Shown in pieces: positions 9,885-21,162 of a stretch of 63,791 bases of DNA (positions are counted from its first letter, which is position 1; each line of letters begins with the position of its first letter). The notes below the pieces were generated by a model. That model worked only from the letters and a program-made list of their open reading frames with translations, was not told the DNA's origin and searched no databases. The translations under genes and the position numbers were made by a program. The stretch is taken from positions 1 to 63,791 of the forward strand of contig NZ_NQVN01000026.1 in the NCBI RefSeq assembly GCF_002770725.1. Reading direction: 5' to 3'. This stretch comes from Pleomorphomonas carboxyditropha (GTDB lineage: Bacteria > Pseudomonadota > Alphaproteobacteria > Rhizobiales > Pleomorphomonadaceae).

Positions 9885-10075
9885 GTGGTTCTTCGTCCTT
9901 TCATCGCAGGGGACGAAGCCAAGAGGGAATCCGGAACGGCGCGAGCCGAGGCCGGAGCTGCCCCCGCAACTGTGAGCGGCGAGCGGCCGATCCACCGAAG
10001 TCACTGATGCCGCAGGGTATCGGGAAGACGGATCGGACGCGTTGACCCGCGAGCCAGGAGACCTGCCACGGCCAC
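9885..10075 (+). promoter_or_regulatory. Cobalamin riboswitch upstream of metE
   Basis: Conserved aptamer blocks appear in order: AAGAGGGAATCCGG (9921-9934), GAGCTGCCCCCGCAACTGTG (9955-9974), CACTGATGCCGC and CGGGAAGAC near 10001-10029, and the B12 box GAGCCAGGAGACCTGCC (10051-10067). It lies about 110 bp before metE, the B12-independent methionine synthase, so adenosyl- or methylcobalamin binding should switch the gene off. Confidence 0.95.
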
Positions 10076-10080
10076 ATTGT

Positions 10081-10186
10081 CGTCATCGGGCGGGGTGTCC
10101 CGGTGGATCGCTTGGTCCCGGCCCTCGTTCGAGCGGCCGGCGATGGCGTGTCCGCTCGCCTTTGCCCCCTTTTATGGGGTTCCGTC
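10081..10186 (+). promoter_or_regulatory. Expression platform of the metE riboswitch
   Basis: The 30 bases 10081-10110, containing the hairpin CGGGGTGTCCCGG, match 17119-17148 downstream of the second riboswitch at 28 of 30 positions. Both platforms end with CCTTTGCCCCC, a short loop and GGGGTT just before the ATG. The only Shine-Dalgarno-like bases (GGGGTT, 10176-10181) are in that hairpin, which suggests control of translation initiation. Confidence 0.65.
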
Positions 10187-20041: not shown

Positions 20042-20058
20042 ATCCAGGATAATCCGAA

Positions 20059-21162
20059 ATGCTCGACTTTTCCGAAAAGACCATTGCCGGCACCGCCGGC
20101 CTCGCCAGCGATGCCACCGGCCTCGGCTCGATCGAGCGCGGCGCCGCCCGCGTCCACGTCGACGACAAGGCGATGATCAACGCCCGTGCCGACGTCAACC
20201 AGTTGCTGCCGATGAAATACGGCTGGGCCTGGGAGAAATATCTGGCCGCCTGCAACAATCACTGGATGCCGACCGAGGTGTCGATGCAGGCCGACATCGC
20301 GCTCTGGAAATCGAAGGACGGGCTGACCGACAACGAGCGGCGGATGATCAAGCGCAACCTCGGCTTCTTCGCCGCCTCGGAAAGCCTCGTCGCCAACAAC
20401 ATCGTGCTGGCCATCTACCGCCAGCTCACCAACCCCGAGTGCCGGCAGTATCTGCTGCGGCAGGCGTTCGAGGAGGCGGTGCATACTCACACCTTCCAGT
20501 ACATCGTCGAAAGCCTCGGCCTCGACGAGGGCGAGCTGTTCAACATGTACCGCGAGGTGCCGTCGATCACCGACAAGGCGGCCTGGGCGCTCGCCCACAC
20601 CCAGAGCCTCGACGATCCGGCCTTCCGCACCGGCACGCCGGCGACCGACCGGGCGTTCCTCAAGGATCTCGTCGCCTTCTACGTCGTCTTCGAGGGCATG
20701 TGGTTCTACACCGGCTTCGCGCAGATCCTGTCGCTCGGCCGGCGCAACAAGATGGTCGGCGTCGCCGAGCAGTACCAGTACATCCTGCGCGACGAGAGCA
20801 TCCACCTCAACTTCGGCATCGACGTCATCAACCAGATAAGGGCCGAGAACCCCCACCTCTGGACGGCGGACTTCGTCGAGGAGGTCAGGGCGATGCTGCG
20901 CGAGGCGGCCGAGCTCGAGGTCGCCTACGGCCGCGACACCATGCCGGGCGGCTTCCTCGGCCTCAACGCCGCGCTGTGCGAAAGCTACATGCACTTCATC
21001 GCCAACCGGCGCTGCGCCCAGCTCGGCATCGCGCCGGTCTTCCCGGAGACCGACAATCCGTTCCCCTGGATGAGCGAAACCATGGACCTCAAGAAGGAAA
21101 AGAACTTCTTCGAGACGCGCGTCATCGAATACCAGAACGGCGGCGCGCTGAGCTGGGACTGA
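20059..21162 (+). CDS. nrdB: Class I ribonucleotide reductase, metallocofactor subunit, class Ic-like
   Basis: Holds the dimetal centre that generates the radical for NrdA. The 367-residue protein keeps all metal ligands: Glu108 (AASESL), Glu139 and His142 (EEAVH), Glu212 (FEGMW), Glu246 and His249 (DESIH). Two positions differ from E. coli-type class Ia: the first ligand is Glu instead of Asp, and the position of the radical Tyr is Phe146 (HTHTFQY). Ligand spacings (0, 31, 34, 38, 104, 138, 141 from Glu108) equal those of Chlamydia trachomatis R2 (E89, E120, H123, F127, E193, E227, H230), the type enzyme of the Mn(IV)/Fe(III) class Ic. I infer that this subunit uses a Mn/Fe cofactor without a tyrosyl radical; the sitABCD importer just upstream fits that. 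Confidence 0.95.
   Translation: MLDFSEKTIAGTAGLASDATGLGSIERGAARVHVDDKAMINARADVNQLLPMKYGWAWEKYLAACNNHWMPTEVSMQADIALWKSKDGLTDNERRMIKRNLGFFAASESLVANNIVLAIYRQLTNPECRQYLLRQAFEEAVHTHTFQYIVESLGLDEGELFNMYREVPSITDKAAWALAHTQSLDDPAFRTGTPATDRAFLKDLVAFYVVFEGMWFYTGFAQILSLGRRNKMVGVAEQYQYILRDESIHLNFGIDVINQIRAENPHLWTADFVEEVRAMLREAAELEVAYGRDTMPGGFLGLNAALCESYMHFIANRRCAQLGIAPVFPETDNPFPWMSETMDLKKEKNFFETRVIEYQNGGALSWD

Follow-up and report, generated by a model that had tools for sequence, protein, structure and literature searches.

B12-independent metE and nrdAB behind cobalamin riboswitches, grouped with a manganese/iron importer at a variable site in Pleomorphomonas carboxyditropha

How do genes that let a bacterium manage without B12 come to lie beside a metal importer? 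The question arises in Pleomorphomonas carboxyditropha from a 63,791-nucleotide stretch of DNA (the window; contig NZ_NQVN01000026.1), in which a cobalamin riboswitch (9869–10084), metE, sitABCD, a small open reading frame, a second cobalamin riboswitch (16900–17119) and nrdAB follow one another on one strand (+). The first-pass annotation had placed metE, sit and nrdAB between two riboswitches, in a block beginning at 9885; metE and sitABCD do lie between them, whereas nrdAB lies downstream of the second, and the first aptamer begins at 9869. Both aptamers are full length (positions 1–189 of Rfam model RF00174), scoring 118.6 and 133.1 bits against a cut-off of 31.5. The interval between sitD and the second riboswitch also holds a 146-residue open reading frame (16407–16847, +), absent from the earlier description, which has no Pfam family and no relative among the loci compared. 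Judged by eye, its start is signal-like. Elsewhere the window contains a serC leader (54220–54271), a suhB/mmgR small RNA (29568–29644) and a tRNA-Val (27631–27705).

The enzymes behind the two riboswitches are clearly assigned. MetE (10187–12508, +), a B12-independent methionine synthase, passes the cut-offs of both equivalog models, NF003556 (1131 against 541) and TIGR01371 (1095.1 against 929.95). The class I ribonucleotide reductase genes nrdA (large subunit, 17231–20041, +; NF005544, 1652.6 against 965) and nrdB (small subunit, 20059–21162, +; NF005550, 667.5 against 309) do likewise, so that, with RF00174 and the protein models all over cut-off, the claim that the riboswitches head B12-independent metE and class I nrdAB stands. 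NrdB has F146 at the place of the radical tyrosine and E108 at the place of an aspartate, the other metal-ligand positions being E139, H142, E212, E246 and H249. The Phe/Glu pairing is that of class Ic, according to PMC8463856. The pairing and the metal-ligand residues are common to all 83 NrdB proteins compared (the window's, two from the family relative G154 and those of 80 surveyed loci), which bears out the class Ic-type assignment made earlier, and the window's NrdAB is likely a Mn/Fe enzyme. The closest solved chain is 6y2n, followed by the Chlamydia small subunit. The window's NrdB thus resembles Chlamydia trachomatis R2c in its Phe/Glu pairing and metal ligands; it differs in that the genome also encodes a B12-dependent NrdJ, that nrdA lies behind a cobalamin riboswitch, and that the Mn/Fe assignment comes from sequence.

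The B12-dependent counterparts, which the annotation had proposed to look for elsewhere in the genome and whose absence it had named as a refutation, are both there and over cut-off: nrdJ on contig C64 and metH on contig C3 of the 80-contig assembly (G000). Of the 20 family genomes, 19 match the NrdJ model and all 20 the MetH model, each over cut-off in 17. With nrdJ and metH present, the B12-backup logic is supported for metE and nrdAB. The class III reductase nrdD–nrdG adds a third B12-free enzyme, likewise behind a cobalamin riboswitch, on contig C74 (L087:6414–9422), at a second site shared with genomes G159–G162 over ~9.6 kb. Six cobalamin riboswitch matches were found in this genome, the weakest with 32.4 bits against the cut-off of 31.5; a gene near this weak match looks cbtA-like by eye. 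Among the strong ones outside the window, one leads to a putative ABC importer and then cobF (contig C44), and another to a cobW-like gene (named by eye) and then cobN. Since cobN and cobF are present, both over cut-off, the signal sensed is probably a cobalt shortage. The locus therefore resembles the known cobalamin-riboswitch repression of metE, nrdAB and nrdDG, with an aptamer before B12-free isozymes whose B12-dependent equivalents are also encoded in the genome, but here metE and nrdAB stand in one block around a Mn/Fe importer, and the reductase is, judging by its residues, of the class Ic (Mn/Fe) type.

To describe how the two leaders might act, we compared predicted pairings in the expression platforms. 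That of riboswitch 1 (10084–10189, +) comprises a G-rich element, a partner arm, a Shine–Dalgarno hairpin and the metE start codon (ATG, 10187); that of riboswitch 2 (17122–17233, +) ends at the ATG of nrdA (17231). The G-rich element, CGGGCGGGGTG with at most one change, stands 3' of the aptamer in 76 of 79 metE, nrdA and nrdD leaders and in 5 of 18 leaders of other riboswitches. It can pair with GGCCUUUGCCC or a similar arm in 60 of 65 metE and nrdA leaders; the leaders left aside were two with no start codon found and three with odd spacing or a missing element. In this first helix 89.1% of 598 cells are paired, against 47.8–65.7% when the arms are slid, and in a competing hairpin, in which CCCC of the arm pairs with GGGG of the ribosome site, 92.2% of 231 cells are paired, against 40.9–80.1%. 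The two pairings are mutually exclusive. The paired percentage of the first helix is reached by 63 of 500 shuffles and its covariation score by 15 of 500, with no pair changed on both sides; for the second helix the figures are 153 and 474 of 500, with one cell changed on both sides. Convincing covariation is thus absent from both helices, the arms being nearly invariant, and a folding test of the Shine–Dalgarno hairpin hardly separates the leaders (68/69) from the control (622/690). The nrdD leaders of the window's genus are predicted to adopt a different structure from those of metE and nrdA. For metE and nrdA, the predictions suggest a shared strand-exchange platform that would fit a translational switch.

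Between these two riboswitch-headed units lie sitA (12777–13700), encoding a metal-binding protein, sitB (13776–14675), encoding an ATPase, and the permease genes sitC (14675–15532) and sitD (15529–16359), all on the same strand (+) and all intact open reading frames without stops. SitB scores 465.7 with the Mn/Fe importer model NF011630 (cut-off 393), SitC and SitD score below cut-off with every model that they match, and SitA is under every model cut-off, its best named manganese model giving 199.4 bits against 485. The nearest solved relative of SitA is YfeA, which aligns over its length with 420 bits, and residues H70, H135, E201 and D276, which we take to be metal ligands, are identical in the alignment. 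We name the operon a Mn/Fe importer because SitB passes NF011630 and SitA resembles YfeA. The likeness to SitABCD/YfeABCD thus consists of SitB over cut-off and the His, His, Glu and Asp shared with YfeA; the difference is that the window's sit sits among B12-controlled genes. Zinc-type ZnuA proteins carry His where SitA has Glu, and on this residue, together with the match of SitB to the Mn/Fe model, we reject the idea that sit supplies MetE with zinc.

The importer genes appear to have their own control. Just upstream of sitA, a promoter-like site, TTGCAA-16-TATGAT (9/12 consensus positions), is overlapped by a box, TTGCAAATGCCTCGCAATTGCA, which we call Mur-like and regard as a putative operator (12702–12732, +; found by scan and coinciding with the start of homology to a relative). 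The box aligns in relatives of the genus, and a strict pattern for it is found at 3 of 30 sit loci, missing the window's own box, whose spacing the pattern disallows, so that this count is uninformative. The operator is likely manganese-responsive. Nucleotide homology to the sit locus of a relative (window 12702–16301, L099 6522–10093, 80%) spans the DNA from the box to near the sitD stop, so that sit looks like a unit travelling with its own promoter. A promoter scan across the block gave four promoter-like sites against 1.3 in shuffles; that of riboswitch 1, TTGACA-16-TATGAT (9847–9874, +), agrees with 11 of 12 consensus positions, and the same scan gave none upstream of riboswitch 2, where a TTGACG stretch is common to both copies in G154. 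A scan for terminator-like sites came back empty both for the metE–sitA gap and for the interval from sitD to riboswitch 2, so that transcription may run on into sit.

Within the family, the metE–sit–nrdAB trio is found in none of the 19 other genomes. MetE and an NrdB of the window's type (each at E up to 1e-30) are found together in 2 of 20 family genomes, the window's and G154, relatives of SitD with at least 70% identity in 8 of 20 (the window's and seven others; G058 has 62% and G095 49%), and NrdD in 10 of 20, all of the window's genus. G154 carries riboswitch–metE–riboswitch–nrdD twice, once at a contig end (C2) and once on C44, and riboswitch–nrdAB twice, on C28, in the order nrdD–nrdG–riboswitch–nrdAB, and again on C2. 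Its sit, on C23, lacks a separate SitC match, and stops interrupt its SitA match and its SitD match; it is damaged-looking and lies apart from metE and nrdAB. One metE match in G154 (among loci L093, L094, L095 and L096) has two in-frame TAG codons.

The site that the block occupies varies between relatives. It is bordered on the left by gapR (8761–9021, +; PF10073) and on the right by an MFS transporter gene (21607–22899, +; PF07690). Among 11 same-genus relatives, counted with G156 (gapR, no MFS match) and G164 left out, six have nothing between these genes, four have riboswitch–nrdD–nrdG, and one (G162) has ~1.9 kb of unassigned DNA. The sit operon follows metNIQ in 5 of 10 genomes of the genus and is missing there in the other 5, where the next gene comes directly after metNIQ; behind the window genome's own metNIQ the contig runs on for 3.4 kb with no sit. 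Loci L097–L101, all from genus relatives, have sit immediately downstream of metNIQ, whose domains mark it as a methionine-type importer. A sit tree covering 55 of 90 rows, in which the row of G154 is unsound for want of a separate SitC match, places the window's sit closest to the genus clade but not within it, a position that fits both relocation and separate gain. A left repeat copy (9106–9166) recurs at 21251–21311 (85%) and 21431–21491 (75%), and a right-hand repeat pair (21231–21564) consists of 21231–21384 and 21411–21564, 77% alike; one repeat family with inverted arms flanks the island, at 9083–9766 and 21230–21580.

Together, the variability of the gapR–MFS site, the metNIQ home of sit and the flanking repeats suggest that gene units were gathered at a variable site. 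We favour, with a probability of about two in three, the reading that the block consists of separately controlled units brought together at one place, namely riboswitch–metE, sitABCD with its own promoter-like site, and riboswitch–nrdAB. Against this reading stand the sit promoter-like site agreeing at 9 of 12 positions and the lack of any such site found ahead of riboswitch 2, as well as the stretches around sit free of terminator-like sites and the adjacency of nrdAB and sit in a genome of another family (G275, below).

The alternative that survives best, though we still consider it doubtful, is a recombination hot spot, at which riboswitches and repeats would provide shared DNA for cassette swaps and the function of a gene would be irrelevant to its neighbours. 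It would account for a gapR–MFS site that is empty, nrdDG-filled or island-filled, for the doubled units of G154 and for the repeat family around the island. It also draws on the descent of the riboswitches, since the metE and nrdA riboswitches of L021 are sisters, and the nrdD and nrdA riboswitches of L024 and L026 form one clade of four; both groupings suggest riboswitch copying. However, gene labels mapped on a tree of 97 riboswitches require 14 changes, compared with 46.2 in shuffles (bootstrap unsettled), and so few changes imply that a riboswitch mostly moves together with its gene. The grouping of the window's metE riboswitch with nrdD riboswitches of the genus is weak (94/55).

A further alternative, which we judge unlikely, is that the block is a selected cobalt-to-manganese island, in which the importer has been kept by nrdAB since low B12 would call up a manganese reductase. 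The class Ic character of NrdB speaks for it. We surveyed nrdB loci from named genomes, keeping the 80 best among at least 576; several of these stretches are cut off by contig ends. Among these best 80 of at least 576 loci, a riboswitch lies upstream of nrdA in 43 by a simple pattern; the other 37, many of them actinobacterial or acidobacterial, have none by that pattern. Riboswitch–metE and riboswitch–nrdAB share one stretch in 14 of the same 80, and 3 of the 80 have riboswitch–nrdDG–riboswitch–nrdAB. SitA, SitC or SitD is found in the fetched flank of none of these best 80 of at least 576 loci. SitB-like matches of ~30% identity, seen in many of them, were set aside for that low identity as other ABC ATPases, with no SitA, SitC or SitD adjoining.

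Seen from the importer, SitA (E up to 1e-80) occurs in 154 of 397 genomes of the order, 10 of them within the window's family. Sit loci were fetched from 80 of the 144 genomes outside the family, with flanks of ~9.5 kb, or less where a contig ended sooner, the sample being the best-scoring down to G074, minus G179 and plus the lower-ranked G303 and G364 (family f23). A cobalamin riboswitch, metE or nrd lies near sit at 4 of the 80 (L187, L202, L212 and L209), the riboswitches being confirmed with Rfam, against ~0.95 expected for riboswitches when a mean genome of 4.1 Mb is assumed; the probability of four or more is ~0.016, a post hoc figure, as L187 had been noticed before the count. Seven of the other 76 loci were checked with Rfam and have no cobalamin riboswitch, and the nine other sit loci of the window's family have no cobalamin riboswitch, metE or nrd nearby. 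The order metE–sit–nrdAB is found at none of 89 other sit loci. Thus the trio as a conserved operon is rejected (0/19 family genomes, 0/80 of the best of at least 576 nrdB loci, 0/89 sit loci), and the manganese importer as a conserved part of the module is not supported: SitA, SitC or SitD lies in the fetched flank of none of the best 80 of at least 576 nrdB loci, and none of the 19 other family genomes has the trio, so that conservation in relatives, whose absence the annotation had named as refuting, is lacking for sit.

The island reading gains support from L187 (3831–19017; contig C32 of G275, of another family), an independent neighbourhood in the order riboswitch–nrdA–nrdB–cobF-like–sitABCD–fur-like–metH–riboswitch–gbcA-like, in which nrdAB, the cobF-like gene and sitABCD lie between riboswitches. 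Its NrdB has the Phe/Glu pairing of the class Ic type and its MetH is over cut-off, the cobF-like, fur-like and gbcA-like (glycine betaine monooxygenase-like) products being under theirs. This pattern is one among the 89 other sit loci. In L202, riboswitch–metE lies 5 kb from sit; in L212 (6635–8457) a cobalamin riboswitch directly behind sitABCD leads to cbiM, and in L209 (5848–6801) one behind sitABCD leads to a weakly cbiM-like gene (21.2 bits against 172). In L185 (6443–9592; G088), chosen for its coordinates and outside the 80-locus count, sitA diverges from a cobalamin riboswitch leading to a putative ABC importer like that on contig C44 of the window's genome. L186 has sit and no cobalamin riboswitch. 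Two fluoride riboswitches lie near sit in L198 (4164–4240 and 6412–6473). The riboswitches of L212, L209, L202 and L185 thus lead to genes other than nrd, which counts against the island reading, as do the empty nrdB survey, the importer's own promoter-like site, and G154, where two nrdAB copies coexist with a sit elsewhere that has stops and no separate SitC.

Two observations therefore contradict the manganese link, namely the lack of conservation and the promoter-like site that the importer has to itself; two others sustain it, G275 and the slight surplus of sit near cobalamin riboswitches. We regard the manganese part of the interpretation as a plausible but weakly supported addition to the supported B12 part, and the importer as a neighbour that is probably specific to this lineage, not a component of a fixed circuit. 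A broader form of the idea sees a cobalt-to-manganese switch written in gene order: a shared RNA design would open B12-free enzymes, the reductase used in air would run on manganese, and a manganese importer would repeatedly have been drawn to riboswitch loci (the island, G275 and the riboswitch–cbiM locus of G203). The G-rich element of the metE and nrdA platform is also present on nrdD leaders. We hold this broader form to be improbable.

Least probable of all is read-through from the metE riboswitch, by which low B12 would also raise the importer: metE and sitA share a strand, with a gap of 268 nt and no terminator-like site between them, but the promoter-like site and box just upstream of sitA align in genus relatives, and the leader looks translational by prediction, which alone would leave sit mRNA unchanged.

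Under our preferred reading of separately controlled units, each riboswitch would hold down translation of metE or nrdAB while B12 is plentiful. In the ON state the G-rich element would pair with the GGCCUUUGCCC-type arm, leaving the ribosome site free; in the OFF state B12 binding would release the CCCC of the arm, which would then base-pair with GGGG at the ribosome site. In a shortage of cobalt or B12, methionine synthesis would pass to MetE and the synthesis of DNA precursors to the likely Mn/Fe NrdAB in air, or to NrdDG, riboswitch-headed elsewhere in the genome, without air. The sit importer would answer to manganese and not to B12. The grouping itself probably arose in the window's lineage, at a gapR–MFS site that relatives leave empty or nrdDG-filled.

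In enterobacteria, nrdHIEF occurs with sit or mntH, linking a manganese-using reductase with manganese uptake under iron shortage and Fur. The likeness lies in a manganese-using reductase tied to manganese uptake; the differences are that cobalt or B12 shortage would be the trigger here and that the link is one of gene position alone. The parts of the present locus are already known, and their combination is new: a literature search, which took in PMC8123684 and PMC545781, returned no earlier report of the metE–sit–nrdAB grouping, a result that leaves absence unproven.

If the manganese link is true, two metal economies would be tied together, with cobalt-based DNA building falling back on manganese through one RNA signal. 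The class Ic-type nrdAB behind a cobalamin riboswitch, seen in 43 of the best 80 of at least 576 nrdB loci, predicts that manganese supply would set the tolerance of cobalt shortage. Even without the manganese link, the contents of the gapR–MFS site suggest that genes for B12 backup act as exchangeable units, each headed by a riboswitch.
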